The position numbers and the translations under genes were made by a program. The notes under the pieces are model-generated. The model had not been told where the DNA came from, searched no databases, and saw only the letters and a list, made by a program, of their open reading frames with translations. 64,000 bases of DNA from Ziziphus jujuba (taxonomy: Eukaryota; Streptophyta; Magnoliopsida; Rosales; Rhamnaceae): positions 29,526,501-29,590,500 of the forward strand of contig NC_083384.1 in NCBI RefSeq assembly GCF_031755915.1, read 5' to 3'. Shown here in pieces: positions 2,270 through 35,847 of the stretch. How positions within the stretch are numbered: position 1 is the first letter of the stretch; every line of letters starts with the position of its first letter.

Positions 2270-2282
2270 TACTACTAGAATC
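2270..2282 (+). repeat. Left terminal inverted repeat of CACTA, degenerate
   Basis: The sequence TACTACTAGAATC starts directly after the ATT target copy. It pairs with CACTACGCGAAAA at the right end over the first six bases apart from the initial C to T change. Loss of the terminal C would be expected to hurt excision. Confidence 0.75.
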
Positions 2283-2309
2283 GAGCTGATACATGACGCA
2301 AGTACTGGA

Positions 2310-3030
2310 TCGCACTAAATAAATAGCGACGCATTCGATGGAGTTGCCAAATATCCTATCGCCAAATATATAAGACAACGGGCAGTGTATCATAACAGTC
2401 ACCTATTAACATTTTTAGCGACGCACATTTAATTTTTAGCGACGCATACAACGATGAACTTATAGCGACGCATAAAATAGAGACTCTTTAAAATATTGTC
2501 ACTAAAAATTTTTTAGCGACTTGTTCATAAACTGTCGTGAAATATTTGTGTCACTAAAAATAGATTTTGAATAGTGACTCGTGTAGTTTTAGCGACTCAT
2601 TTTTGTCGCCTACTTAGCTACTTATGATGTTTTAGCGACGAATTATGTGAGTCTCCTTTTTAGCAACCTATATATTTTTAGCGACTCTTTTTTAGTGTCT
2701 CTAAATTAGCGACGCATCCGTGTTTTAGTGACAAATTATAAGAGTTGCATATTTATGTGTTTTTAGAGACTCATTTTCTCATTTAGCGACATATTCAGCA
2801 ATTAACTTAAAGCGACTCATTGATTTAGCGACACTTTATGAAAAAGTTGTTAAAAATTTATTAGCGACGTTTTCTTTTAGGGTCGCTATATATTTATGTC
2901 GCGAAAATGGAAAAAAATCCTTTTAGCGACATTTTGTGTAGAGTCGCGAAATTTATGAGTCGCTAAATTTATCTTATTATATGTCATTATATATTTTAGG
3001 CGACTTTTTAGTATCTTAATGAGTCGCCAT
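2310..3030 (+). repeat. Left subterminal cluster of TAGCGAC motifs
   Basis: The heptamer TAGCGAC and close variants (AGCGACGCA, AGTCGC, AGCGACTC) recur roughly every 30-50 bases through this block, mostly in one orientation. This is the layout of the subterminal repeats bound by TNPA-like proteins in En/Spm elements. The binding role is family knowledge and the motif here is read directly. The opposite end of the transposon has the same motif in inverted orientation. Confidence 0.8.
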
Positions 3031-3555
3031 TTCTTTTATATTTTTTTAGATTTATATTTTTTAATTTTTAAAAATTTATTAAAATATAAAAGTAATTATA
3101 ATACAAAAAAATCCGAACTAGCTTCGTCCAAAATAATTAGAATATAAAAATTTAAAATAAATACTTGTTCATAACAAAACAATTATCAATATAATTAAAT
3201 ATCATCTCATTGACATATTTTTACATATGCATACTCATTGAGATGGAAGTTGATGTCCTCGTGTTGACGATATTACACCCTCATACTGCATATGGAAAAA
3301 TAAAAAAATTTATTAACACTTACGCAAAATAAATTAATAAAAACTTAATCATTAATAAATTAATTTGTAATTTGGTAAATGAGAATTTAATGAATGAGAA
3401 TTTAATGAATGAGAATTTAATGAATATTTACCTTCTTAAGATTTGGCGTGGCACATTTCTCCTAATTAAAGTGGAAAATACATAAGAAAAAAATAATTAA
3501 TGAATAAAAAAATATTACTTAAAACATAAGTTAATAAATATACGTATCAATTTAT
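3031..3555. other. AT-rich non-coding part of CACTA
   Basis: No gene is seen. It lies between the left subterminal motifs and the 3' end of the minus-strand transposase. There is a triplicated string GAATTTAATGAAT near 3380-3425. It probably holds the transposase 3' UTR and terminator. Confidence 0.5.
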
Positions 3556-4240
3556 TTAGAAGATATTGTTTATCCATATCCCCTCACAGTCATTACGAAC
3601 ATAGCCACTTTCACATTCATCCTCATGATCATTTTCATCAACACTAGGCAATTGTATGGCAAATGGATTGTGAGCCATTGTGGTATCGCCAAGAACATCT
3701 TCTTCAACCAATTCTTCTTCAACCAATTCTTCTTCAACAAAAGTACAATGTCGTGGTGGAGTTAAAACAACAGACCATCTCGAATCAAGTTGATCTTCAA
3801 CATAAAATATTTGTTGAACTTGTGAAGCCATGATGAATGGGTCAGATTTATATCCAATTTTACTAAAGTTAACACATGTAAACCCCATCTCATCAACTTT
3901 CACACCAGTGCTGTCAACCCAATCACACTTGAACACTGGAATTCGAAGCATAGTGTAATCAATGTCCCAAATCTCTCTTATGATCCCATAGTATGTCATC
4001 TCAGCTAAAATTGGGTTATTATCCTTAGCATTAGCAAAATGCTCACTTTTGGCAATAACTTTGACACTACTATTCTATGTGACCCTCTTATTATCTATAT
4101 TTATAGTGTTGAATCTAACCCCTCTAAGGGCATATCCTTCATGTTTCATTACCACCCATTGCGAACCGTGGGCTAACCATCTTAATGTTTCAAAAACTAT
4201 GTGATTAGGTTGACTTCGCTCTTGTGCAATCTAGTCAATT
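3556..4240 (-). pseudogene. TNP2 C-terminal DUF4216 region
   Basis: Readable pieces are MTYYGIIREIWDIDYTML, PVFKCDWVDSTGVKVDEMGF, SDPFIMASQVQQIFYVED and WSVVLTPPR, the typical DUF4216 end of CACTA transposases. A short acidic duplication, VEEELVEEELVEED, follows. Upstream pieces of the domain continue to about 4240 in broken frames. Confidence 0.8.
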
Positions 4241-4560
4241 GAGAAAAATATGAAAAATTAAAGCTAAAACAATGATATTATATATTGAATATTTAACTTT
4301 CCCATACCTTATCATGTAACCAGTACATAAATGTACGTTTGTGTTCATCTTGAAACAATTTTGCTTGTTTTCCTCGATTTTTTTTGCTTGACTTCAAGAC
4401 TTCAAAATGAATACTAAAACAAATAAAAGTTGTTGTAATTAATAAAAATATCCAACATATAAACTATTGATGCATATTAATATATTCAAAATATCAACTA
4501 AATTATACATGGTGATATATATATATATATATATATTAAAAATATCAACTAATTTATACA

Positions 4561-5460
4561 TTAACATGTATATACGCACCTGACATATGGTTCCACTTCT
4601 GGTGTATTCGAAAGTACGCATCTATGGACTTGCTCCCAAAGTTGTTGATCAATTAATTGATTTTTTCCACCTTTAATGGGGGCACCAACATCATCCTTAT
4701 CATTTAACTTTTGATATCTACCAATTGGGTTTCCAACTGCATCTAACCCTCTCTTAAATTCACTACAAAACTTAATCACTTCTTCACATATGTAACCCTC
4801 GGCAATACAACATTCTGGCTGATTTATATTTCGAACATAACTTTTGAATGCTTTCATTTACCTTTCAACCGGGTACATCCACATGAAATGTATTGGTCCA
4901 CACAATCTTACCTCTCAAACCAAATGTACAGTTAGATGAACCATTACATCAAAAAACGATGGTGGAAAGAATTTCTCTAGAAGGCACAAAGTTATAACAA
5001 GATCATTTTGAATATTTTCCAATTCAGCAACAATGATAGACTTCTTGAAAATTGCATTGAAGAAAAAACAAAGTCTTGCAATTGCATGTCTCACATGTTT
5101 AGGAAGGATTGCATGAATTGCAAGAGGCAAGAGTTGTTGCATCAATGTATGACAATCATGAGATTTCAATCCTACCATCTTTAAGTCCTCCACTGAAACA
5201 AGATTCCTAAAGTTTGAAGAATAACGATCTGGAACCTTTAAGTCCACTAAACACTTACAAAACAATTTCTTCTCATGCTTTGATAATGTATGGCAGGCCG
5301 ATGGTAGGAAAGTTTGATTTCCTTGAGGCTGAGGGGCTAAGTCGTTCCGCAAACCCATTTCTTGTAAATCTAATCGAGCATTAACTTCGTCCTTCATCTT
5401 ACCAGGAATATTAAGCAATGCACCATATATGCTCTCACAAACATTTTTCTCAATATGCAT
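4561..5460 (-). pseudogene. TNP2 DUF4218 region and following linker
   Basis: The block begins MHIEKNVCESIYGALLNIPG and contains MVGLKSHDCHTLMQQLLPLA and LEKFFPPSFFDVMVHLTVHL, all hallmarks of the DUF4218 segment. After a break near 4860-4915 the linker reads MKAFKSYVRN, PECCIAEGYICEEVIKFCSE. Part of the segment between VHLV and MKAF, normally about 40 residues, is only partly readable. Confidence 0.8.
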
Positions 5461-5708
5461 GACATCTAAATTATGTCACACATGGAGAAATTTCCAATAT
5501 TCCAATTAAAAAAAAATTGGACTTCCTCTTCCAACATTCTTTAGAATCAACAGTCATTTTCCTCTTGTTTGAGTTATCAAATCTCATTGCATTAAGCTTA
5601 TCTAAGATTTCTTCTCCAGTCAACGGTTTTGGAGGCACTCCAAATTGTTGAAATCCATTGAAAGCCTTCTTTTAACTTCTATAGTGATGATTTGGAGGAC
5701 GAAATCTT

Positions 5709-7027
5709 CTATGCCCGGTAAAACTCATTTTTTTTTCCATGCTTTAGCGTTGTAGCAAAAGTATTTTCATTGCAAATTGGACAAGCATAATATCCCTTCA
5801 CCGCATGACCGGACAAGTTACCATAACCTGGGAAATTATTTATTGTCCATAGCAACACTGCCTTCAAAGTAAATTTCTCTTGACCGTACGCATCGAAGAC
5901 CGTAACACCCTCATTCCACAACCACTGCAGGTCTTCAACTAACGGCTCCATGTATACATCAATTTGATTTCTGGGTTGCTTTGGTCCATAAATTAGAAGG
6001 CTTAACATCATAAATTTCCGCTTCATACACAACCAAGGAGGAAGATTATACACAATCGTCATCACAGGCCAACAACTATACCTACTACTTAACATATTAT
6101 GTGGATTAACTCCATCGGCCGCGATCTCAAGTCTCAAATTCCTATCTTCGGATGCAAAGTTTGGCCATAAACGATCAACCAACTTCCAAGATGGAGAATC
6201 CATAGGCATGCCATGTCAAATTCTTAGCCATTTCAACACTACGAAACATTCGTTTAAAACGCGGAATAATAGGAAAGTACCATAAAAATTTATTTGGAAT
6301 ATTGTTAGCAACTCCATTCTTATCAATTTTCCATCTAGCAGATCCACATTTAGGACATTCATTAAGGTCCACATATTCCTTCCCAAACAGAATACAACTT
6401 TTAGGACATGCATGAATCTTGATGTACTCCATTCCCAAAGCAAGTCTTCTTAACATTGTACATGGATGCTGGCAACACATTGTCATTTGGCAACATCTCG
6501 AATAACAATTGCAACAGTACATCAAAGCTCTTATCAGAATATCCATATCTTACCTTTAAGTTGTACAATTTAACCAAGGCCGACAACTTGGTAAATTTGG
6601 TACAACCTAGGTACAAAAGTTTCTCTGCATCCTCCAATAAGGTAGCAAATTCATTAGGATCATTATCAAAAGTTTCTAATGAAGCACGGGTCATGTCTAA
6701 GCTATTGAAAGCCACGTCTTCCTTACTACTGCTATCATTTTCATTATATTCTATATTAATATTCCCAAAATGAGAAGATGGTCCAATACCATCAGCACAT
6801 GACTCACCATGCCAAATCCATCGCCGATAGTTGACATCAAACCCATTCCAATATATATGGCCTTTAATATCCCTAATGGTATGGATTTTCATATTCCCAC
6901 ATTGCATGCAAGGACACCATATGGCATTACAATCATTGGCATTCTCCATGCTAAATTTCAAAAATTCACTCACCCCCTTAGCAAAATCGCTTGAGGTTCT
7001 ATCCTTTGTTATCCATGATTTATCCAT
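5709..7027 (-). pseudogene. TNP2 N-terminus and transposase_21 core
   Basis: The N-terminus has WCPCMQCGN and HIYWNGFDVNYRRWIWHGE (Transpos_assoc type). A core follows with CPKSCILFGKEYVDLNECPKCG, AADGVNPHNM, SCWPVMTIVYNLPPWLCMK, IYGPKQPRNQIDVYMEPLVE, TINNFPGYGNLSGHAVKG and YACPICNE. Frames change near 6400-6540 and near 6200, so the core is split into at least three pieces. I cannot tell from one copy which breaks are introns. Confidence 0.85.
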
Positions 7028-7439
7028 TTCCCTACCAATCTAAGCATAACAATATCAAACAATATCACAAAAAAAATTATCGACAAAAGCAAGATTAAGA
7101 AAACCCAGCGAACCTAACCTTTGGTTATAATGAATAAATAAATAAATAAAAAATAACCCAATCCACCACATGTCACCTTCAATCATAAAGCGAAAAGAAA
7201 CTCACCGAAACCATGGAGACGAAGAAAGAAGAAGCCAAGCTAACCACGAGGGCGACACAGAGAAATCCAACTTCCAAATAGCAACGCAAGCAAATGGAAA
7301 CTTAAACACAAAATATCCCACTCTTCAAGTCTCTTTTAAATTGCTTCCAATTCTAACACCTATTATGAAGTGTACTAACACATATTTTGTGAAAAGAAAT
7401 GGTATTCAAAATCCCACGTAAAATTTGAAAACGCACCAA
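7028..7439. promoter_or_regulatory. Probable 5' leader of the TNP2 gene
   Basis: This gap lies between the transposase start and the first palindromic repeats. It is A-rich on the plus strand, with a tetranucleotide AATA/AAAT run near 7135-7155. No motif is certain. I looked for an internal CACTAC terminal repeat here that would betray a second nested CACTA and saw none. Confidence 0.35.
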
Positions 7440-10400
7440 AAATTTTAAGAAAATGGATAAACAGGCGACGTATTGAGATAAATTGTGTCGCTAAAGGATA
7501 AACAATTTCATAGACACCCTTTTTTTTAATTCTTTAAAAACAAAAAAGTTTCTCCAAGTACTATTTATTTCCTTCTTAAACTTTTAGCAATAACTCTAAA
7601 ATTGTAATTTTTCATTTAAAAAACTAGATGAACTAGCGACTCATTGAAATAAACAGGTGACACATTTACATATAAAAGGGTCGCCTTATCCAATAGTAAT
7701 TAAAATTTATTTTTTAAGTTACTTTTTTTTAAATTACATCTAAAAATATTTCAACATAGCATTCCAATGAACATCAAGTCAATTAATCTAAAAATAGAAA
7801 ATAGTTTTATCAATGCTCTTTTCAATTATTCACATATATGTGTATACACAAACACAAAAACACATCTCGCGACATAATTTGAGATAGGATATAACAATTG
7901 TAAATTGATCTAAAGCAAGGACCCATAGTCCAATTGCTCAACGTAAGTATGTTCAACGAGTTGAACTTTCATGTTTTTGGCTATTAGTGATAGTTTATTT
8001 GAACTCAAATAAAATAATAGATTACATTTGTTTCTTCATTTCAAATAACAAGTGACGCATTAAATGATACATGGGTCTCCATATCATATAAGGCGACCCT
8101 TTCGAAGACAATAGGCGACGTATAATAATATTTACATGTCGCCTGTTAGCAAATATATATATATTTTTTTGGTTCTTTTTATTTTCAATCAATTTGATTT
8201 TCTTTTAACGTCAAATATCCAGTGAAAATATTTAAGCAACTTATTAACTGAACATAATTTTTTTTTTTTAAATCATGGTAACAGGCAACAGATAACAATA
8301 TTTGTGCGTCGTTTCTTAGCAAATATTTTTTTTTTTTGTTTTGGTGGGTGCTCTTTCTGTTTAATCAATCTGATTTTTTTTTCAATATCAAATCACCAAT
8401 GAAAATATTAAAAAAAAATAAATGAGGGTTTTTTTTTTTTTTTTGAAATCATGGTAACAAGCGACGCATAAATATTTTTATGCGTTGCTTGTTAGCAAAT
8501 AATTTGTTTTTTTGGAAGTGTGATCTTTCTGTTTAATCAATCTGATATTCTTTCAGCATCAAATCACCAATGAAAATATTTAAACAATATAAACTAGTGT
8601 TTTTTTTTTTTCATTATAAGTAATAGGCGACGTATAAAAATATTTCCACGTCGCCTCTTAGCAAATATAATTTTTTTTTTAACTCAATCTAATTTTCTTT
8701 ACAACATCAAATATCTTGTGGAAATATTTAAGTATTTATGTGTCACTTGTTAGTGAATAAATTTTTTCTTTTTTGTGTGTGATCTTTCTATTTAATCAAT
8801 CTAATTTTCGTTCAGCATCAAATCACCAATGAAAATATTTAAACAACATAAACTATTGTTTCTTTTTTGTTTTTTTAATTATCAGTACTAGGTGACGCAT
8901 AAAAATGTTTCCATGTCGCCTGTTTGCAAATATAATTTCTTTTTTTAATTTTTTTTAACTCAATTTAATTTTCTTTACAACATCAAATATCCTGTGAAAA
9001 TATTTAAGTAACTTATTAAATTCACATTTTTTTTTTAAATCATGGTAATAGGCGACAGATAAAAGTATTTATGTGTCGCTTGTTAGCAAATAATTTTTTG
9101 TTTTTGTGTGATCTTTCTATTTAATCAATCTAATTTTTGTTCAGCATCAAATTACCAGTGAAAATATTTAAACAATATAAACTAGTGTTTTTTTTTTTAA
9201 AATTATCAGTAATAGGCGACGCATAAGAATGTTTCCACTTCGCCTGTTTGCAAATATAATTTTTTTTTTAACTCAATTTGATTTTCTTTACAACATCAAA
9301 TATCCTGTGAAAATATTTAAGCAACTTATTAAATTCACATATTTTTTTAAAATCATGGTAACAGGCGACGCATAAAAGTATTTATGCGTCGCTTGTTAGA
9401 AAATTTTTTTTTTTTTTTTTTGGTGTGATCTTTCTGTTTAACCAATCTGATTTTCGTTCAACATCAGATCACCAGTGAAAATATTTAAACAACATAAACT
9501 AGTATTTTGTTTTTTAATTATCAATAATAGGCGACGCATAAGAATGTTTCCACGTCGCCTGTTTGTAAATATAATTTCTTTTTTTAATTTTTTTTAACTC
9601 AATTTGATTTTCTTTACAACATTAAATATCTTGTAAAAATATTGAAGCAACTTATTAAATTCACATTTTTTTTAAATCATGGTAACAGGCGACGCATAAA
9701 ACTACTTATGCGTCGCTTGTTAGCAAATAATTTTTTTTTTTTTTGTGTGTGTGTGATATTTTTGTTTAATCAATCTGATTTTATTTCAGTATCAAATCAC
9801 CAGTGAAAATATTTAAACAACATAAACTAGGATTTTTTTTGTTTTTTTAATTATCAATAATAGGCAACGCATAAAAATGTTTCCACGTCTCCTGTTAGCA
9901 AATATAATTTCTTTTTTTTTGTTTTTTTTTTTAACTCAATCTGATTTTCTTTACAGCATCAAATATCCTGTGGAAATATTTAAGAAACTTATTAAATTAA
10001 CATTTTTTTTTTCTAAATCATGGTAACAGGCGACGCATAAAACTACTTATGCGTCGCTTGTTAGCAAATAAATTTTTTTTTTTTTGTGTGTGATATTTCT
10101 GTTTAATCAATCTGATTTTTTTTCAGCATCAAATCACCAGTGAAACTATTTAAACAACATAAACTTGTGTTTTTTTTTTTTAATTATCAATAATAGGTGA
10201 CGCATAAAAATGTTTCTGCGTCATCTGTTAGCAAATATAATTTTATTTTTTTTTTGTTTTTTTTTACTCAATCTGATTTTATTTACAACATCAAATATCC
10301 TTTGAAAATATTTAAGCAACTTATTATATTAACTTTTTTTTTTTTAAATCATGGTTACAAGCGACGCATAAAATATTTATGCATTGTTTGTTAGCAAATA

Positions 10401-10640
10401 ATTTTTTTTTTTTTGGTGTGTGATCTTTCTATTTAATCAATCTGATTTTCTTTCAGCATCAAATCACCAGTGAAAATATTTAAACAACATAAATTAGTTT
10501 TTTTTATTTTTAATTTTTTTAACCAATCTGATTTTCTTTCAAGTATAATTATTTTTTATTTAAGCTTTCAAAACACTTCAAATTTATATGCTTTTTAATT
10601 TTGATAGGCAACGTAGTTTCTTCTTTATAAGTCGCCCATT
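7440..10640 (+). repeat. Left palindrome-cored tandem array inside CACTA
   Basis: From about 8040 the array is regular. Its units average about 165 bases, each centred on AGGCGACGCATAA...TTATGCGTCGCCT. Cores lie near 8461, 8628, 8891, 9051, 9215, 9364, 9530, 9688, 9863, 10028, 10196 and 10360. Two unit types alternate, giving a higher-order period near 330. One type is followed by GTTAGCAAATAA plus a GTGTGATCTTTCTGTTTAATC stretch. The other has AATATAATTTTTT and a TTTCTTTACAACATCAAATATC stretch. Looser copies lie at 7464-7690. It separates the two divergent transposon genes. Confidence 0.85.
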
Positions 10641-11709
10641 CTAATTTCTTCTTTTTTTTTCTTTTGTATTTCAATTTTTTCTTTTGTTTGGGTCTTTAAA
10701 TATTTTTATTTGCCCCTAAAATGTTTTTAATAACCATTTTTTATTCCCCAATATTCAGGAAATATTAAAAATAAAATGGCACGTTATTCAATGGGCTTTC
10801 TTTTCAACAATTAACCCCAAGTACGGATACTTGAGAGTTGGAAGCAATCTAGGAAGTATGAGAAGATTTTGAAGGATCACGCTCTCATTAGGCATTCGTG
10901 TTTCTTTCAAGGGTTTGAAGGATTTTGTGGGTTTCTATCCTAAATTTCAAAGTTCCTTCTTCCTTTGCTTCTTCTTCTTGCCAGTGGTTGGGTTGGAAGC
11001 ACTTCACCCTTTTGCCATGGCTGTCACCGCCGCCATGTTCGGTGGGTCGTGTACTTCGCCGTCGCAGTGGGTCACTGGGATTTTTGCCGTCTCGTCGCTA
11101 GGATTGGGTTGCTGGGTTTCTGCCGTGCCATCGCCGTCGCCTGCTGTGGTGGCTTGAAGTTCCTCTTGATTGCTGAATTTGTAAAGGTGTGCTGTTTTTC
11201 ATCCGTTTTGGGGTTCGGTAGTGTATGTGTTTGCTTAAAAAGATATTCTGTTTGCTGGTTTTTTTTATTTTTTTACATATTTGTTCATTATTGTAATTTT
11301 GGTGGGGTTTTATGTTGTCAAAATCATGACTTGTCATCGACAATGGGTTAGCTAAATTTTGTTTGGAAAAATAGCTATATTTATTGAGTGGGTTCGATTA
11401 TATGTAAAGCAAAATGATATGCTAATATTTGTATTATGTGTTTATATGTTTAAATTCAAGATAAAGCCTTTATAAATTGCGTGGGAAATGTCAACGGTAT
11501 CACAGATGGTGCTCTATTGCGGGTCTTAAAGTGACGTCGTTTGTATGGCTCAAAATCCATTAGTGATTTAGTCGCCTATTGTGTTTGAAAATGTTAATGA
11601 CTGTTAAAGAGGATAGATGTTAAGAGAAGATACTATTATTGCATCACTTGGTAAATAAATTACATGAATTTATCATTTATTATTGTTATTAATGGTTTAT
11701 TCATTATAC
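10641..11709 (+). promoter_or_regulatory. Promoter and 5' leader of the CACTA plus-strand gene
   Basis: Between the array and the first recognisable exon the composition becomes GC-richer (about 10980-11160). Short plus-strand ORFs occur there without any family resemblance. A donor-like string AAAGGTGTGCT at about 11183 and AT-rich sequence up to 11700 fit a non-coding first exon plus intron. The assignment is inference from position and composition. Confidence 0.35.
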
Positions 11710-13140
11710 TACACCCTATGTTCATATTGTTGGATCACCATCCAATGATACGGAAAGACCGAATACGTCATCCCCAAGGCATAGAAAACAAGGGGCTGCA
11801 ATAATGAAAGGCCTTAGGAAGTATTTGGTGGGAAATAAAAGCTTGGAACCTCAATATAATGAGGTTGGAGTTGCTATTAACTCTGAGGCCGTTCGACTAA
11901 ACAATTTGGAGGGCTCGTTGGCTAGGAGCACAATACCAATTAATATACCTAATTGGAGAGATGCGTCAGATAGGTTAAAAGATAACCTATGGGCATCAAT
12001 AAAGGTACGAAGTGCATTATTGTTAAATATTGTTTATTATGAATCATATTTAATTGATGAAGATTTTATAATTCCTTTTTTGCATTTGTAGCTTGTATGC
12101 ATTTTACTTGCATTTCTAACTTACCACATTTACTTGCCAATCAATGTTACTAAATATATATATATATTTTTTAATTTTGCAGCAATATACAGGTAAAGAT
12201 GATAGTTTTAGGAAGGTAACTTTAAAAGATTGTTGTGACAAATGGAGAAAATTCAAGAATTACTTATATAGATATTTTGTTCGACCATATATTGAACACC
12301 CGAAAAGTTGAAGCATCGACCCTCAATGTATGAATTCATAAGCCAAGAGGTGTGGGATGATTTTGTACAACAAAGGTTGTCGGATAAATTCGAGGTATAA
12401 TTTTATTTAATGCACGTTAATGTTGTATTAAATTGCGTTGTCATTATTTATATAAAAATTAAAATTTGTTATGGTGACTTAAATTATTTGGGTTTTCTAA
12501 TATGTATATTTATAACTTTTGTAGGCATTAAGTCAAAAATATTCGAAAAAACGGCAATTAAACAAGTATTCGCATAGGATGGGTGCAATGGGCTATGCGA
12601 GATTAGAAAGAGCCATTGTATGCAATTTATTTTTATTTACATTTAACCATATTAATTTTGTCATTGTTACTTGATCACTTGCATTATTAAAATTAATTTA
12701 TTTGTAATTTTGAAGCAACTTGAAAGAGGCACCGAAGATTATGTAGACCGAGATGACCTATGGATACGGGCACGTATGGGGAAGGACGGAAAATATGCAA
12801 AGGAAGAAACTGAACATGTAGCGGAAAAAATTGTGAGTATTGTATTTTTTATGAATGTTTGTTGCATATATTATTATTTAGTTCATTATTATATAAACTG
12901 ATATATTTAATCATTTAAACAATATATTGTAGAATGACTTAAAGAAGAAGGCAACAGAAGGAGAAATTCAGCCTTCACCTCCGGTGGATATCCTCACACA
13001 AGCTTTGGGAAAAGAGGAGTATGGAGGTAGGCTTAGGGGTCGAGGCAAAGGATACACGGTAACTAACTTTTTCCATACTCCTAAGCCGAGTTCACAAAAA
13101 AAGACCAAGTTGAAGGGAAGTGGAAACAATGTAGTCTATG
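11710..13140 (+). pseudogene. Plant transposase (Ptta/En/Spm) domain exons
   Basis: Spliced reading gives RKYLVGNKSLEPQYNEVG, IPNWRDASDRLKDNLWASIK, then QYTGKDDSFRKVTLKDCCDK and WRKFKNYLYRYFV. It continues MYEFISQEVWDDFVQQRLSD, YSKKRQLNKYSHRMGAMGYA and DYVDRDDLWIRARMGKDGKY. The W...F...RLSD, K.R...Y.HRMG and R..LW..A pattern is typical of PF03004. One base change of frame at about 12298 (before the PEKLKHRP match) disrupts the second exon. Confidence 0.8.
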
Positions 13141-13254
13141 AGATGCTGCTCAAAGGTCTGGTGGCGATCGTCAGAAATTCAAGCAGCAGCAACGCTGCCC
13201 AAGTTGATGCGCTCATATTGGCATGTGGTATTGACATTCCATCACTCACTCATC

Positions 13255-13460
13255 CAGCCGATGCTGTTGCTACTCCTGGGACCCAAGTCGATGATGTTGC
13301 TGATCAAGGGACCCCCTCAGCCCATGATGTTGATGCTCCTGGGACCCAAGTCGATGATGTTGCTGCTCATGGGACCCCCCCAGCCGATGATGTTGATGCT
13401 CCTGGGACCCATGTAGATGATGATGTTGCTGCTCATGGGACCCAATCTACATCTTGGGTT
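13255..13460 (+). repeat. In-frame minisatellite in the CACTA plus-strand gene
   Basis: A unit of about 60 bases encodes roughly DDVDAPGTQVDDVAAHGTPP. It is repeated a little over three times with small changes (DADQ, DDDV). The repeat stays in frame, so it lengthens an acidic, proline/glycine linker between the transposase and DUF8039-like domains. Confidence 0.8.
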
Positions 13461-13495
13461 GATGCTTCTCGGATCTATCCTGAGGTAATTATTTC

Positions 13496-13526
<31 letters not shown>

Positions 13527-13668
13527 TTAAGTGGGTTATTATTATCTATATAGCTCCCATGGTTGAAGAGCCCTACCTACTGCCATGAGGTCATGGGATC
13601 GAGTCTTTAAGATGAAGGAATATTGTCATGTGAACATATATTAATTTTTTTTTTTTTTAACTTTGCAG

Positions 13669-13920
13669 GGTGTAAAATGCAATCTTGCACAAGGCAATGT
13701 TGGCCATATAGTAGCACGTGGCACTATGGTACCTTCGCTGCCAACGAATATGTGCCATGGTGTGAAGCTAGGTGCAGCAAATTATAAGGTCACTATTGAT
13801 GATGTTATTGATGGATTTGCACCTTTACCTATTCTGTCATTTGACATCATACGTGTCGGTGATGCTGAAGGTGCATTTGTTGCATGGCCAAGAGATCTTG
13901 TTATCTTGCCATCTAAGGAG
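13669..13920 (+). pseudogene. DUF8039-like domain exon
   Basis: The exon, bounded by CAG| and |GTATTG, reads CNLAQGNVGHIVARGTMVPS, MCHGVKLGAANYKVTIDDVI, and AEGAFVAWPRDLVILPSKE. The pattern C.L...N..VA.G.......HG..L......V..D and a final W P..L matches the domain often found just before Ulp1 domains in plant transposon proteins. Its function is unknown. Confidence 0.65.
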
Positions 13921-14045
13921 GTATTGTTCGATGCAGCTATATATATTAATGAAGTTTAAAATAATTTCATTTTTGTATATAATAATGAAGTTTAAAATAA
14001 TTTCATTTTTTTTCTACTTTAAATGTTGTTTGTTGATATTTGTAG

Positions 14046-15270
14046 GGAAGCTTGAATAGGTCAAATGTTGAGAATGATCAAGATGATAATGTTGATCCCT
14101 TAGTCGTTACCCCAACGATCCGAGAGTTGCTACGTCGGATCAAGGACATCGATAGCGATCATTTATGGTTTTTTAATATGAAAAAGAAGATCTTTGGGGA
14201 AGAACAACAGTTTGGCATAGCGAGGAGTGATATAAATGATTTTTGTTAAATGCAAGAATTATCTTCTGAATGCATCTTGTTCTACATAAGGTAAACTAAA
14301 TTTCGATGTCTTTATAACTAATTCATCAATTTAATTAATTATACACTATAATTACTTGTAATCGGATTATGTAGGCATTTATGTGAGGGATTGACGGGCT
14401 CCTTCGAAGGGAATTATTGCTTTGTTCATCCGGATATTATTGCTTCGGTTGGTCATCCAAACCCTCATGAACGGATGATAAATATGTTGAGTAGATGGCA
14501 AGATGTAAGAAATAATCAACTATGCTTCTTTCCCTACTGTGCAAGGTAATATTGTGTTAGTTTGAATTGAATTATGTTGTGAAAATATTAATTTCGAAAC
14601 ACATCATATTAACTAAAATATTTATTGGTGTTTTTAGGAATCATTGGATGCTACATGTTGTTAATTTATACAAAGCAGTAGCATGGTTTTTTGATTCTTT
14701 GAAGACTCATTAATAACTTTAATTTTTTTAATTAATTGTTCTTATATTGGATTTGTACTTTTAAAGCTACAATATAATCTTATACAATATTTATATTTCT
14801 ATATAGTTCCTTCGTTGCATGGGATCAAGGAAAGACATCTGAAAAGAAACTTCGATGGCAAAATACTAAGGTAATTATTATATATAAACTTAGCATTATT
14901 AGTTGTTAGTTAATTTAAATAGTTGTATATATTCATATCTAATATTACACATAATTTACTGTTTGCAAATTTAGACATCGATGCAGCCCGGGAGTGCGGA
15001 ATGCGGTTACTATATTATGATGATAATGCGAGATATCATTAGGCGCAAAGTTCCTCCCCGGGACTTAAGAGCAATGGTAAATTATTATTAATTTAATGAT
15101 TCATCGTATTTGTATTATGTAATAATTAATATTTATGATTATTTGTATATGTATGAACATAAGTTTCTCATGTTCAGTACGAAGGTGTCACTTGGTTACA
15201 AGCTGAAAATGTCAACGAATTTAGAGATGAATGGGCAATAGCGATGATCATAAGTATCTCAAACCAATGA
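14046..15270 (+). pseudogene. Ulp1-like (C48) cysteine protease domain
   Basis: Catalytic landmarks are readable: His in RNHWMLHV (codon 14642-14644), Asp in WFFDSLK (codon 14693-14695), and Cys in QPGSAECGYYIM (codon 15002-15004) with the oxyanion Gln just before it. Upstream, ELSSECILFYIR fits the usual start. The stop TAA near 14247 falls just ahead of it in the same frame. Ulp1 proteins cleave SUMO or related modifiers. Why transposons carry them is not settled. Confidence 0.8.
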
Positions 15271-15459
15271 ATATCTATGCATGGTAGTGAAATAGCTAGC
15301 TTCTGTTAATAGCTTTTGTTTGTACATATAAAATATTGTAGACCAATTTGTGAAAATCGCTCATAAGGTAATATTTGTTTTGCATGAACTTTGGTTTTAA
15401 ACATACCAATTTTACAAAAATTCAAACAATATTAAAAATAATTAAAATAAACGGTGACC

Positions 15460-17965
15460 AGGCGACGCACAATATGCTTGAGAGTTGCCTAATACAAATA
15501 ATGCAAAAAAAAAAAAAAGAAAAATCATCACAGTTATGTGCTTAAATATTTTAACTGGTTATTTGAAGTTGAAAATAAAACAAATTGATTTATATTTTTA
15601 CAAAACCCAAAAAAAAAAAAATAAAAGGTGAACAGGTAATGCACAATAAGCTTTAGCATCGCCTGATACAAATAATGCAAAAAACAAAAACAAAAACCAT
15701 CACAGTTATGTGCTTCAATATTTTAACAGATTATTTGATGCCAAAAGTAAAACAGATTGATTAATATTTTTACAAAACCAAAAAAAAAGAAAAAAATACA
15801 ATAAAAGGTGAACAGGCGACACACAAAATGCTTGAGGGTCGCCTGATACAAATAATAATAAAAACAAAAAACAAAAACCATCACAGTTATGAGGTTAAAT
15901 ATTTTAACTTGTTATTTGAAGTTGAAAGTAAAATAGATTGACTAATATTTTTAGAAAACAAAAAAAATAAAAGGGTAACAGGCGACGCATAATACGACTA
16001 TTCGTCACCTAATACAAATAATGCAAAGAAAAAAAAAAACAAGAACAATTATACTTCTTAAATATTTTAACTGGTTATGTGAAGTTGAAAGTAAAACAGA
16101 TTGATTAATATTTCTAAAAGCCAAACAAATAAAATTAAATTATAACAGGTGACGCACAACCATATTGTGTGTCGCCTTATACAACCAAAAAAAAAAAAAA
16201 CCAACACAGTTATACTTGTTATTTAAAGTTGAAAGGAAATAAGATTGATTAATATTTTATAAAAAAGAAACATAACTAAATTTTTAGTGAACAGGCGACG
16301 TACAATATGCATTTGTGTCGCCTGATAAACATATTTTTGAAAAAAAAAACAAAAACAAGCTTTGTGAAGCTGCTTCAATATTTTCTCTTTTTATTTAAAG
16401 TTGAAAGAAAATTAATTGATTAATATTTACAAAATATATATATATATATATGTTAATAGGCGACTCATAGAGATGTTTATGCGTCGCCTTATATCAATAA
16501 TATGCTAACCAAAAAAATAACAATTCAGCTCTGTTATTTTTTCAAAATATTTTTACTGGTTTTTAAAGTTGAAAGAAAAATCAAATTGATTAATATTTTA
16601 TGAAAAAGAAAAATAAATAAATATAAGGGCATCAGGTGACACAAAATATATCTATGTGTCGCCTGATACAAATATTTTTTGTAAAAAAAAAAAAGCTCTG
16701 TGTTGCTACTTAAATATTTTCACTTGTTATTTAAAATTGAAAGAAAATCAACTGTTTAATATTTACAAAAAACCAAAAAAAAAAAATTAATAAATTAACA
16801 GGCCACGCATAATGTTGATTATGCGCGCCTGATATCAATAATGTGCATTGTAAAAAAATAGAAATCCAGCACTGTTATTTTTCTTAAATATTTTCACTGG
16901 TTTTTAAAGTTGAAAGAAAATCAGATTGATTAATATTTTATGAAAAAGAAAAATAAATAAATATAAGGAATAAGGTGATGCAAAATATACCTATGCGTCG
17001 CCTGATACAAATATTTTTTGGAAAAAAAAAAAAAAAAGCTCTGTGATGCTGATTAAATATTTTCACTTGTTATTTAAAGTTGAGAGAAAATTAACTGCTT
17101 AATATTTACAAAAAACCAAAAAAAATAAAAAATAAATTAACAGTCTATGTATAATGTTGATTATGCGTTGCCTGTTATCTATAATGTGTGTTGTAAAAAA
17201 AAACAAATCCAGCACTGTTATTTTTCTTAAATATTTTCACTGGTTTTAAAAGTTGAAAGAAAATCAAATTGATTAATATTTTATGAAAAAAGAAAATAAA
17301 TAAATATAAGGGAATAAGACGACGCAAAATATACCTATGAGTCACCTAATACAAATATTTTTTGGAAAAAACAAAAAAAAAAAAGTTCTGTGATGCTGCT
17401 TAAATATTTTCACTTGTTATTTAACGTTGAAAGAAAATCAACTGCTTAATATTTACAAAAAACCAAAAAAATAATAATAATAAATTAATAGGCGATGCAT
17501 AATGTTGATTATGCGTCGCCTGATATCAACAATGTGTGTTCCAAAAAAATAAAAATCCAACGCTGTTATTTTTCTTAATTATTTTCACTGGTTTTTAAAG
17601 TTGAAAGAAAATTAGATTGATTAATATTTTATGAAAAAGGAAAATAAATAAATATAAGGGCATCAGGTGACGCACAATATGCCTATGCGTCGCTGATGTA
17701 TATATTTTTGTACAAAAAAAAAATTATCTCTGTGATACTGCTTAAATATTTTCACTTGTTATTTAAAGTTGAAAGAAAATCAACTGATTAATATTTACAA
17801 AAAAACCCCAAAAAAAATTAATAAGTTAATAGGCGACGCATAGAGTTTGTTATGCATTGCCGGATATCAATAATGTGGAACGAACAAAAAATTAAAATCC
17901 AGCTCTGTTATTTTTCTTAAATATTTTTACCTATTTTAAAGTTGAAAAAAAATCAGATTGATTAA
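15460..17965 (-). repeat. Right palindrome-cored tandem array inside CACTA
   Basis: About fifteen units spaced 145-185 bases apart have cores near 15472, 15632, 15814, 15980, 16149, 16292, 16457, 16632, 16799, 16973, 17139, 17308, 17480, 17664 and 17829. The text between cores is the reverse complement of the left array: left units contain AATCAATCTGATTTTCTTTC and GTGAAAATATTTAA, right units carry GAAAATCAGATTGATTAATA and TTAAATATTTTCACTGG. Two unit types alternate here as well. This is the right partner of an inverted pair of arrays. Confidence 0.85.
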
Positions 17966-17989
17966 CATTTTTCTTTAGTGTAGCATTTA

Positions 17990-18247
17990 AACAATACAAT
18001 TCATATAAAATATACGCATTCTATTAAAGGCGACTCTGTTGGGCTGAATATTCAGCGACTCTTAACGGATGCGTCGTGTGTTGTTGTTTCTAGCGATTTC
18101 TTGACATCGACATTTTTCGTATGTGTCATCTATTTATTGAATTTTTACTAACGCATTAACCTCAGAGTCGCGGTTTTGTTTTTTTAGACGCATTTATTTC
18201 ATAGCGTCGCTAAGAGTGTGTCGCTAGATCTTACTTTTCGCGTAGTG
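17990..18247 (-). repeat. Right subterminal motifs and terminal inverted repeat
   Basis: GCGTCGC, GTCGCTAGA, AGCGACTC and related copies crowd the last 250 bases, ending in TTTTCGCGTAGTG. Read on the minus strand this starts CACTACGCGAAAA and then gives AGCGACAC motifs, mirroring the left end. Confidence 0.8.
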
Positions 18248-18250
18248 ATT

Positions 18251-18612
18251 TTAAAGAGATGAACGAAACTAAACCAAGCTTATACAACCTTTAGGATTTA
18301 TCTTTTCCAAATTAGGAGCCCATGTCAAATTTGGTACTTGAGTAAGGAACTTGGAAAAACTAAGATCCATCCTTCTTAACACTGGAAGATACTATCAAAC
18401 AAGGGAGAAAAGGGGTTAATTATTACTTCATATATGCATGCACTTTAACATGTAATTCAATATAACTAAATTAAGCATACCACAACTTTATGCGTATTCC
18501 AAAGCTTTTCAACATGGCTGCCACGAAGTAGAAGTCCAACAAGATTCTCAGGATTAAATTGTGATGGCAATGATTTCGAAGGGTATGACTCCCATTGGCT
18601 GAAGCTAGGTTG
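18251..18612 (-). pseudogene. TNL-A exon 3 end and start of LRR exon
   Basis: Two exon pieces match TNL-C. At 18481-18612 the minus strand reads YPSKSLPSQFNPENLVGLLL, RGSHVEKLWN, followed by the conserved donor GTATGC. At 18251-18395 it reads LRRMDLSFSKFLTQVPNLTW and APNLEKINPKGCISLV, then a stop TAG and the CACTA junction. The upstream edge, near 18612, ends in Copia-derived sequence. About 75 bases of exon 3 found in TNL-B and C are missing between this piece and 23164. Confidence 0.8.
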
Positions 18613-18640
18613 ATTGTAGTGTACCCAAGCAAACTTGACC

Positions 18641-19503
18641 ATGTCCACTAAGTTTGAGGTGGAGAAATTCACGAGCTCAAATACTTTTGGCCTTTGGAAG
18701 ATGAAAATGAAGGCGGTATTATTAAAGGAAGGATTAGATGTGGCTTTAGAAGGTGAGGAACATTTACTGGAAACAATGGATGTTAGAAAGAGGAGGGAAT
18801 TATTGAAAAAGGCATATAGTTCAATAATTCTTGGTCTTGGAGACAAGGTGTTGAGAGAGGTGTCAAAGGAAACAACGGCGACTGATGTTTGGAGAGTTTT
18901 GGAAGAGAGGTACATGGCTAAATCACTACCGAACCACATCAATTTGAAGCAATGGCTATATGGCTTCAAAATGAAAAAGGAAAGGTCTTTGAGTGATAAT
19001 CTTGATGACTTCACTAAGTCGATTCAAGATATGAAGAGTATGCAAATCTCAATTAAGGGTGAGGACCAAGCAGTGATTTTGCTTAATTCTTTGCCTCGAG
19101 GAAACAAGCACTTTCTGGATACTCTCAAGTATGGAAGACAAACCTTGGATGTGAAGGAAGTTATAGCAGCGATAGTTGCTAAGGATGCGGAGAAGAGCTT
19201 AAGTGGCAAGAGTAATGATAAGTTGGGACTCACGATGAGAGGTAGAACCTCGGATCGGCCTAGTGGTAGAAATTGGCAAGGTAAAAGATCAAAATCAAGG
19301 GACAAAATGAGATGTTTCCATTGTAATCAACTGGGGCATTTCAAGAAGGATTGTCCAGAGAGGCTTGGAAAGGGGAAGGAGAAGCAATCTGATGGAGATG
19401 CAAGTGTTGCCTCAGAAGGTTATGAAAGCTCCGAAGTATTGCTTGTAACCGATGGAGACAATGGCATTGAGTGGATACTTGACTCGAATGTACTTTCCAT
19501 ATG
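18641..19503 (+). pseudogene. Copia gag with zinc knuckle
   Basis: From ATG the product reads MSTKFEVEKFTSSNTFGLWK, then the UBN2-type gag body and the CCHC knuckle CFHCNQLGHFKKDC (around 19315). The ORF ends right after WILDS, at the start of the protease. One base is missing near 19488, so the active-site region (normally D-S/T-G-C) is put out of frame. The next stretch continues in another frame with FHMSPMRSYF. Confidence 0.85.
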
Positions 19504-22500
19504 AGTCCAATGAGGAGTTATTTTGATACATTTGAGGAACTAGATGGAGGACATGTTCGAATGGGGAACAATATGGTTTGCAATGTTGAGGGGATTGGTA
19601 CGATAAAGTTGAAGCTTCATGATGGAGTTGTGAGAACTTTGTCGGATGTGCGGTATATTCCCGGGTTGAAGAGGAATTTGATTTCTCTTGGTACATTGGA
19701 TGAGCATGAATAAAGTTATAAGGCTTATAAAGGCATTTTGAAGGTTTTAAAGGGTTCAATGGTAGCGATGAAGGCTTCTAAGAAGAATGGCTTGTATGTG
19801 CTAGATGGAAGTGTGGTTCAAGGTGAAGCTTTGATCTTGGTAAATGAGAATGTGAGCGACACCACACTTTGGCATAGAAGGCTAGGCCATATTAGCAAGA
19901 AAGGGCTAATTAAGCTTAGTAAACAAGGGCTTTTGTGTGGGCACAAGGCGGAGAAACTTGACTTTTGTGAGCATTGTATCTATGACAAGCAAGCTAGGGT
20001 GAAGTTCAACATCGTGGTGCATCGAACTAAGGGGATCTTGGATTATGTTCATTCTGATGTATGGGGTCCCCATAAGAATGAATTCAATGGGTGGTTGTAG
20101 GTACTTCATGACCCTCATTGATGATATTCAAGGAGAGTATGGGTTTACATATTGAAAACCAAGTATGATGCTTTCATTAAGTTCAAGGAATGGAAGGTTA
20201 TGGTTGAGAACCAAACCAGAAAGAAGATGAAGATGCTCCGAACGGATAACGGGCTCAAGTATTGCAATAAGGAGTTCAATTCCTATTACAATGAGCATGG
20301 AATTGTGAGACATAGGACCGTGCGGATGACTCCTCAACAAAATGGTCTTGCTGAACGTATGAATAGGACCATTTTGGAAATAGTGAGAAGTATGCTTTCC
20401 AATGCTAAGCTACGTACAAGTTTTTGGGTGGAGGTGGTGAAGTGCTATTGAGTTCAAGACTCCAATGGAAAAGTGGTCCAAGCACGCACCGGATTTAAGT
20501 AATCTCAAGGTCTTTGGTTGCACTTCGTATGTTCATGTAAACGAAGGCAAGTTACATCCAAGATCTATGAAATGCATTTTCTTAGGGTACCTGGAGGGTT
20601 TCAAAGGCTATAGACTTTGGAATCTAGATACAAGGAAGTGTGTGATTAGTAAGGATGTGGTGTTCAAGGAGAGTGAGATGCTTGGGTTGGCGAAGGATAG
20701 AGAATCTTCGAGTGGAGATGAAGTTGTCAAGGAGACATTTGATCTTGGGATTGAGGAGAATCCAAGGAAAAAAGTGACTCATGAGGAGCACCGTGATACA
20801 CAAATGGCTCAAGAACAAGTTGATGAGGTAGTTGATTGTACCGATGAGGAGGTGGTTGATGTTGATAATCTCCATGATTATAACTTTGCTCGTGATAGAG
20901 AACGGAGACAATCCAAGGCACCGGTGAGATATGGTTTTGCAGATTGTACTGTATATGCTCTCGAAGTTGCAGAAGAAATGGACTCAGACCCTAACACTTT
21001 TAAGGAAGCTTTAGCTTCAAAAGATTCGATAGAGTGGAAGGCGGCCATGGATGAGGAGATGGATTCCTTGCATAGGAATCAAACTTGGAAGTTAGTAGAT
21101 AAGCCTAAAGGTGGAAGGATTATAGGTTGCAAGTGGGTTTTCAAAAAGAAAGAAGGTGTACCCGAAGTTGAGGCACCAAGGTTCAAAGCTCAATTGGTTG
21201 AAAAGGGTTATACTCAAAAGGAGGGAGTGGATTTCAATGAAATATTCTCTTCGGTGGTGTGACACACTTCTATTCGGATCTTGTTATCACTTGTGGTTCA
21301 TAAGGGTCTTGAGTTGCATCAATTGGACATCAAGATGGCATTCTTGCATGGAGACCTCGAGGAATAGATTTACATGGCTCAACGCGAAGGATATGCAAAG
21401 GGTGCCAAGGTATGCTTGCTTCAAAAATCCCTTTATGGCTTGAGACAATCTCCTAGGCAATGGTATAAGAAATTCGACATGTTTATGCTTGGTATTGGCT
21501 TTAAGAGGAGCACGTTTGATCTTTGTGTGTATTACAAAAAGTTTTCGAATGGGGAGTTCATTTATCTCTTGCTGTATGTTGATGATATGTTGATTGCGTG
21601 CAAACATATGGATGAGATTGATAATTTGAAGAAGTTGATGAGTTTTAAGTTTTAGAAGAAAGACCTTAGAGAAGCCAAGAAAATTTTAGGGATCGATATA
21701 TTTCGGGATAAGGAGAATAGGGAGATATTTGTCTCTCAAAGGAAGTATATTGAGAAGGTCTTGGAAAGGTTCAACATGGGCAGTGCAAATTCCGTGATCA
21801 TGCCTTTAGCACCTCACTTCAAATTGTCATCCAGGCAATGCCCGAAAAGTGAACAAGAGAGGGAGAGCATGGCTAAGATGCCATATGCAAGTGTCGTAGA
21901 TTGCATAATGTATTTGATTGTGTGTACTAGACCGGACATCGCTCATGCGGTTAATGTGGTAAGTAGATTTATGATTAATTCGGGAAAATCACATTGGGAG
22001 GCTTTGCAATGGATTCTAAGGTATTTAAAGGGACCCATGGATGTTGGCTTATTGTATCGGAAAGAGAACAATGGTAATGGTGATTGTATTGTCGGATATT
22101 ATGATGTGGATCTTGGTGGTGATCGACACAAGAGAAAGTCCTTGACGGGTTATATATTTTCTGCTTGGGGTAATACAATTAGTTGGAGAGCATCGTTACA
22201 ACCGGTGGTTGCACTCTCAAGTATCAAAGCCGAATATATGGCAGCCACGTAAGCAATAAGGGAGGCATTATGGTTAAAATGGTTGGTAAATGAACTTGGT
22301 GCTCCCCAAAAACAAGTTATTGTGCATTGTGAGAACCAAAGTGCAATCTTCTTAGCAAAGAATTAAGCCTTCTCGGACCATACAAAGCATATCGAGAAGA
22401 AGTACCACTTTGTTTGAGAATTGATCGACAAAGGTGAAGTGGATTTGGTGAAGATTGCGGGTGAAAAGAATCCGGCGGATATGTTAACTAAGGTAGTGCC

Positions 22501-31870: not shown

Positions 31871-33935
31871 GACAACCAATTTTTTTTAATCATATGATAT
31901 GGCTTTAATTATGAATTATTAGTCTCAATTATTTATTCCTTTTAAGTATTATCTTCTTGTCTCTCCTCTTTTTATTATATAGAAAAGCACTTGGAGAGTT
32001 CATACATCATTGTAATTACTTAACCTCAAGAATTTGGTCATTACCGAAAAAAGAGAGAAGGAAAAAAAAGAAGAAACAAAACTAGGATTTGGTGAAGACT
32101 GCCCAATTTATATGTTTTACAGACAATGACAGAAGCATATAAATTAACTACAACAGAAGCTTTGTTGGGCATCATTGTAATTACTTAACCTCAAGAATTT
32201 GGTCATTACCGAAAAAAGAGAGAAGGAAAAAAAAAAAGAAACAAAACTAGGATTTGGTGAAGACTGCCCAATTTATATGTTTTACAGACAATGACAGAAG
32301 CATATAAATTAACTACAACAGAAGCTTTGTTGGTGCCCAGTAAGCGAACAAGTACTAAATCAGATTATACATAAAAACATAATCAGAATTCTGAAAAGAA
32401 AGAAGTAAAAATTTGCATTGCTGCTTATTCGGTATTAATAGTAACAAAATTATTGAAACAGATTAAGTTATATCCAAGGAACTGCATCTCTGCTTCGCTG
32501 CCAGTTCAATATGAAGTAGAATCCTTACACTTTTAATTTGACACATAACCATAACTTGACAATGAACCTATAAAACTTGCTTACTAAATGTTACAGTTTG
32601 TTTCCATCAATAAGAAAAATAATACAATTCGTATTGAGCAGTTTCACGATAATCTTAACAAGACCAGTCAAAATGAAATGAGTCACTATAGATAGAAACT
32701 CACACCATATTTTATCAAGAAAAAACAAAGGCACCCAATTGTTCAGCTTGATGTTACAATGCTGTCCATGTATTAACTTAATGGTAGTACTGCTCATGTA
32801 GAAAGATATTTGATGTAACTCTGTAGAGAAAATAATTAGTTGAAGGAACAAATTAGAAGAGAAAAGAGCTCCTAGCTAACCCATATATCATGCTTGGTTG
32901 TTTAACTTCTTGGTAGTAATCAAGCTAATATTTCAAATGCATGCATACTGGATGCAATTGATCATAAAATCGATATATTTTGGCAAAATGACATCATCTA
33001 ATTCAAAACCAAATCTATGCTGACTCAGAAATCTACTATTTAGCTCGTAATGGAAAGAGTATTTGTTATGACAAAGTACAATTCAAAAACACAAAAATGT
33101 CCAACCATTCATAAACACGTTTTATCAAACACTTTTGCAGAGAATAATAACAAAGTAAGAAATTAAATCAAATAGATAAATATTATATTCAGAAAGTTAA
33201 GAATGTTCGACAAGATGTAAAGATGTACTTACCCATAAAATGCATCAAAAACAACTCAGGCTCATAATTCTTATGAAATACATTCTTATTTTATTTGATT
33301 TCCTCTGCAAACATATGTAAAATGGTTCATAGTTATTAAAGAAATTCATATTGATATATAAAATTAAGTAATGCAATGCCAAAATAAGAAGAAAAACAAG
33401 AGGAAGAGAGAACTTCTCCAACTTACTATACCATTCATTTATTTGAAGCTACGTGCCATGGTGTCTACATAGCTCACACACATTTTCTTCGAAGCCTGAA
33501 ACTACAAAAGACATGCCAAATGGTGATAAACGAAGTTCACCAATATGTACATGAAAAGTCCATCAAAATACTTTTCATAGCAAATATTTTTATTTTCCCT
33601 TTGTGTGTATCATTTCAAACAAAAGACAAAAATTTCCTTTAGAGATTACCTTACAATTTGTAAATTTATTAGTTTATATCTTAATACAATTAAAATACTA
33701 CACAATGCATGTTGTAAACAGTATATTAACTCATACACATTAATTTGCCAAAAAAATAAAATAAAATGGATTTACCTTAGGATACACAGAATATGCTTTT
33801 GATTTTCTTGTTCCATATACATCAGAGCTAACAATGATTTCATAATTAGTAGCAAAGCATTTCTTGAAGTTGTAGCACAAGTTGTTATGTTTTTTAGGTT
33901 CCTCAACGTCCCATTGCTCTGCATCTTCTAAACAG
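31871..33935. other. Non-coding DNA downstream of TNL-C
   Basis: No gene is seen. It contains a 165-bp tandem duplication (32005-32334). Parts of 33240-33900 recur at 600-830, 59180-59560 and 62700-63250, all at a similar distance 3' of a TNL C-JID exon. Minus-strand AAGGTAA donor-like strings recur in each. This looks like a conserved TNL 3' UTR with introns, or simply duplicated flank. Confidence 0.5.
32005..32334. repeat. Tandem duplication of a 165-bp segment
   Basis: CATCATTGTAATTACTTAAC through ACAACAGAAGCTTTGTTGG occurs twice, starting at 32005 and 32170. The copies differ mainly in an A/G run. This is a recent local duplication. Confidence 0.9.
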
Positions 33936-34608
33936 TCATATAACTTTTAGTTTCTTAGAATGTGATTCATGATCAGAGTCTTCTTCCTCAAGAGAGTCAA
34001 CAGCATCCCTTCCACTTGATTCACAACATTCATTGAAGTGTCTCTTATTCTTACTTTCAGTTTCTGCATTACATCTCTCCATGTCTTGTTTGTACAAAAA
34101 CCGAACCCCAAACTTCTTAATCTCGCCATACCCATGTCTTGTTTGATCACTTCCAATGTCTAAAATTTGTTCACTATCATAATAACAAGGAGAGACATGG
34201 AAAGAGGTCTCAGTGCTACAAGTAGATGGCCAATTTAGTCCATCCATTTCTTTGCTAAGTATATTCCATTTAGAATATTGCAAAAACCGTTTTTCTACGT
34301 ACCATATGAGCACGTGATCTGATCTAACATTGTTTTCCGATACCCACCAAGAATAATCATGATATTTGTAAAGATGACCATCATCGATAGTTTTGAGATT
34401 TAGTTCACAGTGAATATCGAAGTCTATCTCAGGGTCAATTATTCCGACGAAGAACAATGCAGAAAGCCAAAGCCAAGAAGTCATCATTATTCCAATATGG
34501 CGGAAGCATAATATTATTGATTGAAGTCCCACAAGTTTGATAGCTGAACCACTTTGGAATTTCATATCCCGGATAGCGTAAAACTGGAACATTAATGTTA
34601 TCGTTGCC
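33936..34608 (-). pseudogene. TNL-C C-JID exon
   Basis: It reads GNDNINVPVLRYPGYEIPKW, NIMLPPYWNNDDFLALAFCI and, after a frame change near 34440, IDFDIHCELNLKTIDDGHLY, RSDHVLIWYVEKRFL, EIKKFGVRFLYKQDMERC and the acidic SLEEEDSDHESH tail with SKKLKVI at the end. The Lys-rich end may act as a basic patch. Confidence 0.85.
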
Positions 34609-34692
34609 CTGTTTCATGAACGTGGGAAATTAATAAACTAGCTTAAAAATCATAAAGCATCTCAGCAAACGAAGAGAAATAGATATACATAC

Positions 34693-35763: not shown

Positions 35764-35847
35764 CTGTAATAGGAGGAGAAAAAAAAAGGATTAGAGTTAA
35801 TTAGAATGCAAGTTAATATCTAATTACAGTAGACATATAAAGCATAC

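Follow-up and report, generated by a model that had tools for sequence, protein, structure and literature searches.

One CACTA (En/Spm) element, at 2270-18247, lies in a 64,000-nucleotide stretch of the Ziziphus jujuba genome (assembly GCF_031755915.1, contig NC_083384.1, positions 29,526,501 to 29,590,500 of the forward strand; hereafter the window, in whose coordinates all positions are given), and it raises the question of why a transposon should carry two long tandem arrays that are built from the same repeat unit and face in opposite directions. We found that the palindromic core of this ~165-bp unit contains the element's own subterminal motif, as a palindromic pair, and that the arrays stand on either side of the element's second gene, where they may well serve as amplified platforms to which the element's TNPA/TNP1-like protein binds. 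The element itself, ~16 kb in length, is dead.

The left array (8101-10620, plus strand) has 15 units and partial ends, and the right array (15430-17971, minus strand) has 15 units, with a second-gene zone of 4.8 kb between the two. Both were delimited with a 55-base anchor, BLASTN, and a tree of the units, and the right array also with Tandem Repeats Finder (TRF), which covers it over its length but covers just 8187-8680 of the left array. The anchor placed the left units at 8187-10435, with a weak partial copy at 10521, and the right units at 17963-15590; the units score 19-47 and the partial copy 16, while 10 first-order Markov shuffles, made of the left region only, peaked at 10-12. Cores are spaced 107-176 bases apart in the left array (13 intervals, the shortest adjoining a unit with a deletion) and 146-180 in the right array (14 intervals).

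When the left array was compared with the right by BLASTN, the minus strand gave 210 matches, 45 of which reach 60 bases (the best has 1,843 columns, 64.7% identity, and an E value of 6e-72), whereas none of the 61 matches on the plus strand does (best, 51). Long matches are thus confined to the minus strand, as expected from a sequence-only reading of this locus, which had described the arrays as one unit in opposite orientation; the same-orientation outcome, named beforehand as the one that would speak against it, did not occur. That reading also had the left array separating two divergent genes, and the array does lie between tnp2 and the second gene. The motifs from 7440 to ~8040 stand alone and do not belong to the array proper; four copies occur at 7400-8100, in the gap that separates the start of tnp2 from the left array. 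The description of a giant inverted repeat around a Ulp1-bearing gene holds for the inversion but far from perfectly for the identity, as the mean identity of units, which is 0.83-0.89 for the same type and 0.67-0.70 for different types in one array, is only 0.63-0.67 from one array to the other, and we therefore regard the arrays as old homologs rather than as a near-perfect inverted repeat. The alternation of two unit types that had been claimed for both arrays extends from about L3 to L15 on the left, the side near the second gene (L2 breaks the pattern), and from R1 to R10 on the right, the side near the right end, while R11-R15, near the second gene, do not alternate. Because these patterns differ, the arrays are not mirror images in detail.

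The motif that ties the arrays to the rest of the element is GCGACGCA. Allowing at most one mismatch, we counted 10 copies in the left end, 4 at 7400-8100, 18 in the left array, 19 in the right array, and 3 in the right end; elsewhere, the tnp2 zone has 2, the second-gene zone none, and the 45.8 kb downstream 2. Shuffle means are 0.05-0.35 over the five motif-bearing zones; for the left end the mean is 0.35 and for 7400-8100 it is 0.05, with a maximum of 1 in either case (20 shuffles). Between the arrays, the half-sites of the core are 70% identical, compared with 27% expected from composition, the loop is 58% identical, and the linkers are 53% and 50% identical. A further block, the body (54 alignment columns), is 78% identical where composition predicts 33% and scores far above shuffles in both arrays; in the five other element zones tested, it stayed within the shuffle range (33 to 194 of 200 shuffles scored as high). 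The body is AT-rich, as seen at 10435-10488, and among the element zones tested it is found in the arrays only.

The near-palindrome on which each unit had been said to be centered is borne out by folding, in which five units fold better than shuffles: two left even-type cores form a stem of ~17 pairs (z, -9.6 and -8.5), and three other units fold more weakly (z, -3.5, -3.7, and -2.7), though still better than each of 200 shuffles. The coordinates of a sixth fold (z, -1.6) cut off half of the core, and this fold was not used. Of 278 cells, 68 depart from the palindrome on one side only and 10 carry compensated changes; the core halves pair at 74.1% compared with 70.1% after random re-pairing (28 units; 4 of 1,000 re-pairings). 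RNA structure as the selected feature was rejected on account of these mainly one-sided changes, even though pairing is somewhat above random re-pairing. Observed/expected CpG ratios reach 1.27 and 1.02 for the two arrays and 1.9 for the ends, against 0.45 for the 45.8 kb downstream. We did not rely on the decay of CpG sites as a footprint of methylation: left half-site transitions differ (16/112 versus 6/166; P = 0.0024), but both halves pooled give no support (36/228 versus 37/340; P = 0.097).

How the two arrays came about can be read in part from the tree of their units, in which each array forms one side of a branch with 100/99 support. The tree, the pairing tests, and the block tests took 28 of the 30 units, with L04 and L15 dropped as truncated. 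A shared origin of the alternating types was rejected for all four cross-array pairings of odd and even units, with approximately unbiased P values of 0.0009-0.0013 that are optimistic, since the groups were named after inspection of the tree and R11-R15 were kept with the other rows. Because each array is one clade and all four pairings fail, the dimer patterns probably arose separately. The simplest history is probably that inverse copying of a monomer or short array founded the pair and that each copy later built its own dimer array; alternatively, strong gene conversion inside each array may account for the array clades. The flanks of the arrays are unlike (30 of 200 shuffles score as high for the outer flanks and 120 of 200 for the inner ones), and therefore no longer inverted duplication is visible.

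The borders of the element and its ATT target-site duplication (2267-2269 and 18248-18250) could be fixed because an uninterrupted paralog of the interrupted gene, which codes for leucine-rich repeats of the disease-resistance type, sits in the same window (33900-36100). The joined flanks with one ATT match this paralog in 574 of 781 aligned columns (73%), the alignment, which has gaps elsewhere, is continuous across the junction, and the paralog holds a single ATT at its empty site near 35.6 kb. The left terminal inverted repeat, TACTACTAGAATC (2270-2282, plus strand), has lost its first C and equals the right repeat at 8 of 13 positions, while the right one, CACTACGCGAAAA on the minus strand (18235-18247), is intact. 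Besides these repeats and the 3-bp target-site duplication, the element has the other features of the CACTA superfamily, namely, a tnp2 transposase (Transposase_21; E value, 5.4e-72) and short subterminal repeats in both orientations, with 8 forward and 2 reverse copies in the left subterminal region (2270-3040) and 0 and 3 in the right one (17972-18247), the latter being marginal. Intact genes, as autonomous activity demands, are absent, and membership in the superfamily is possible without such activity.

Of the two genes, tnp2 (3556-7039, minus strand) is broken, with Transpos_assoc, Transposase_21, DUF4218, and DUF4216 in separate open stretches; its closest named relatives include proteins of Cucumis, Prunus, Humulus, and Acer (among the best 120 of 556). 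The second gene (11735-15258, plus strand) diverges from it and consists of about 13 exon pieces, placed by eye and joined for the Pfam search, in which Transposase_24 was matched well above its cutoff (E value, 6.2e-16; 59.2 bits; cutoff, 28.7) and a Transposase_23-like piece fell below its own (E value, 0.03). The combination of tnp2 with Transposase_24 is a known CACTA gene pair. The 3' part of the second gene resembles Peptidase_C48 (Ulp1) with 20.0 bits against a cutoff of 20.7 (E value, 6.5e-4), and it contains HW and Q...CGYY motifs, spotted by eye, which we take to be catalytic. At least one in-frame stop and at least one frame break disrupt the gene. Within it, TRF found an in-frame 63-bp tandem repeat (13254-13443, plus strand) that encodes an acidic repeat peptide and recalls the variable peptide repeats reported for VANC proteins.

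Protein searches gave no match with a single exon of the second gene and one match with the joined pieces, where only the 7,991 candidates sharing most words were scored; viral contigs yielded one 13-residue match, and the array unit found no match there. A protein of Z. jujuba var. spinosa (P0121) is 80% identical to the second gene over 127 residues, and its last 18 residues match a reading of the window near 13.55 kb at 17 of 18 positions; therefore, a relative of the element's family exists in jujube. This protein is annotated as an ALG10-like glucosyltransferase and ends with ~160 residues of the second gene (window positions 12525-13610), a tail that is either an exonized transposon piece or an annotation fusion.

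The presence of the motif in most repeats suggests that the element multiplied the landing sites of its own control protein, and the chance that the arrays are amplified binding platforms for a TNPA/TNP1-like protein seems to us about even. The sequence-only reading had listed a binding platform among its options, and we favor it because the cores contain the subterminal motif and because changes to the palindrome are mostly one-sided; binding, regulation, and de-silencing by the second gene's protein are what we infer from this. The presence in the second gene of Transposase_24, the Pfam domain used elsewhere to select tnpA homologs (PMC8195511), the conservation of the half-sites above that of the linkers, the richness of ends and arrays in the motif, and their CpG ratios, which exceed that of the DNA downstream, all point the same way. 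The recognition motif would have been packed as a palindromic pair into the ~165-bp unit, whose amplification then gave rise to one array that separates tnp2 from the divergent TNPA-like/Ulp1 gene and to another between the second gene and the right end. The inverted layout probably reflects the founding event, the inverse copying described above, after which each copy was amplified separately. The second gene's protein would then bind the palindromic cores at two half-sites per unit, and the large number of regularly spaced sites would let it control the divergent promoters and help to assemble or de-silence the element, much as TnpA and VANC do in Spm and VANDAL21, respectively. Several observations weigh against such a platform. 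The element copy examined is dead and single, the three motifs of its right end are marginal against shuffles (mean, 0.25; maximum, 2; 20 shuffles), and the motif counts of the arrays are not independent because the units are copies. Moreover, the block best conserved between the arrays is the body, which lacks the motif, and the core halves pair above random re-pairing, less clearly so within each array (44 and 112 of 1,000 re-pairings), so that the cores may be under some pairing constraint.

The main rival is a satellite without function, a unit of about nucleosome length, either captured or seeded by the motif and expanded neutrally by unequal exchange in noncoding parts, and we regard it as a serious possibility, if a less probable one. 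A precedent is the 16.5-kb CACTA-like (Jozin-type) element of quinoa, whose 32.5 copies of a 171-bp unit near the 3' end were judged by the authors to be captured, with no sign of generation by the element (PMC8978399). Like neutral tandem arrays, those described here are noncoding, differ in length pattern, and formed dimers separately, and the body has no counterpart elsewhere in the element. Among the window self-matches listed (best 40 of 47 and 60 of 107), array matches stay inside the arrays. A neutral origin fits poorly, however, with half-sites and body that are kept between the arrays far above the linkers and with a core motif that is the element's own.

Two further options of the sequence-only reading fared less well. 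As a source of small interfering RNAs (siRNAs), the arrays would pair with each other in read-through transcripts and thereby contribute to silencing the family, for which it could be said that the arrays are opposed over their whole length, that single cores fold strongly, and that tandem repeats can yield siRNAs (PMC10398659, in part). The longest perfect complement between the arrays is, however, 23 nucleotides (nt) (runs dominated by one base left out), runs of at least 21 nt cover 2.7% of the left array, runs of at least 24 nt do not occur, and the arms are split by the second-gene zone. A present-day role of this kind is unlikely; the arrays were probably more alike when young and may have had a double-stranded RNA role at that time. 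A nested or composite origin, with the arrays as ends of a second element inserted around the second gene, seems to us more improbable still, although arrays and gene together resemble a unit with inverted ends and the motifs start near 7.46 kb, close to where a hidden CACTAC end had been suspected. The whole element has a single clean empty-site junction, the array flanks are unlike, and its two genes are already a known pair. Among 11 CACTA and 16 TAGTG strings (2.2-18.3 kb), equal 3-bp flanks join only 4761, in tnp2, with 11565 or 18247, and 14344 with 7989 in the wrong order, and looser 10/13 end matches, many of them chance-like across the window, include no pair enclosing the arrays and the second gene (by eye). 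Own ends with a target-site duplication around arrays and second gene were thus not found by equal-flank search and 13-base end score, which decayed ends could escape, given that even the genuine left end has lost its CACTA reading. With neither convincing nested ends, shared flanks, nor long complementarity, the nested scar and a present-day double-stranded RNA source are both disfavored.

Known systems share parts of this arrangement, as far as the accessible portions of the papers cited here describe them. The quinoa element resembles ours in its ~16 kb and its tandem unit of ~170 bp near the 3' end, and differs in that one array is reported rather than two inverted ones, that the core here holds the subterminal motif, and that the dimers present here have no mention there (PMC8978399). 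In CACTA type 4 of the same report, Transposase_24 and Peptidase_C48 can co-occur in open reading frame 2 (PMC8978399); our second gene has the former and, just short of the cutoff, an end resembling the latter. Soybean Tgmt* is likewise a large CACTA element with its subterminal motifs as palindromes (12 at the right border and 2 at the left), but these lie within 159 bp and 732 bp of its ends, one gene unites the tnp2 and TNP1 domains, and arrays of a 165-bp unit are not described (PMC2613891). In maize En/Spm, TNPA binds subterminal motifs and is required for transposition (PMC2613891), and activation of Spm by TnpA correlates with demethylation (PMC10398659); the second protein here would bind in a like manner, while the maize motif is 12 bp long and sits at the ends, and no comparable arrays are described (PMC2613891, PMC10398659).

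VANC proteins of VANDAL elements act on motifs often repeated in tandem in noncoding parts (PMC5735166), and some VANC genes bear an Ulp1 domain according to a review (PMC13317346). Fast-changing tandem targets (putative ones here) in noncoding parts and a protein with variable peptide repeats are shared with our element, but VANDALs belong to the Mutator-like element superfamily and their protein to another family (PMC5735166, PMC10398659), and the VANC domains DUF1985 and DUF287 are absent from the Pfam matches of the joined second-gene pieces up to an E value of 0.1. We tentatively raise, as a rather doubtful extension, an independently evolved VANC-like anti-silencing system, in which a Transposase_24/Ulp1-like protein with in-frame peptide repeats would act on two amplifying palindrome arrays, the first separating the divergent genes and the second at the right end, and either array would evolve its own two-unit higher-order pattern. 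Grapevine CACTA-ULP families carry ULP domains, and the main text of that report as available uses neither the word tandem nor the word subterminal (PMC2528002). Each ingredient thus has a precedent (the quinoa array, the Tgmt* palindromes, the grapevine ULP), but we met no report of their combination, a pair of inverted arrays whose core is the subterminal motif, in a limited literature that leaves subscription journals mostly outside.

In the usual description, CACTA subterminal repeats take up a few hundred bases at the ends. In this element the motif is packed into units of nucleosome size, which were amplified twice and in opposite directions on either side of the gene of the likeliest binding protein, and each array seems to have formed its own dimer pattern. 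If binding is true, this would be a second transposon superfamily that multiplies its own control sites, and a single element would let one follow, twice and in parallel, how a satellite is born and how higher-order repeats form. If it is false, the locus still shows clearly how a satellite can grow in connection with a transposon motif.

Elsewhere in the window, a 165-bp tandem duplication at 32005-32333 has the length of the array unit, yet it is unmatched to that unit among the self-matches listed; its copies are 99% identical. Several related disease-resistance-like gene copies are present (774-2177, 18248-18594, 33900-36100, and 60071-61243), one of which provides the empty site. Directly downstream of the CACTA element, at ~18620-22250, lie the remains of a Copia-type retrotransposon, with gag, zinc knuckle, and RVT_2 pieces in several frames.

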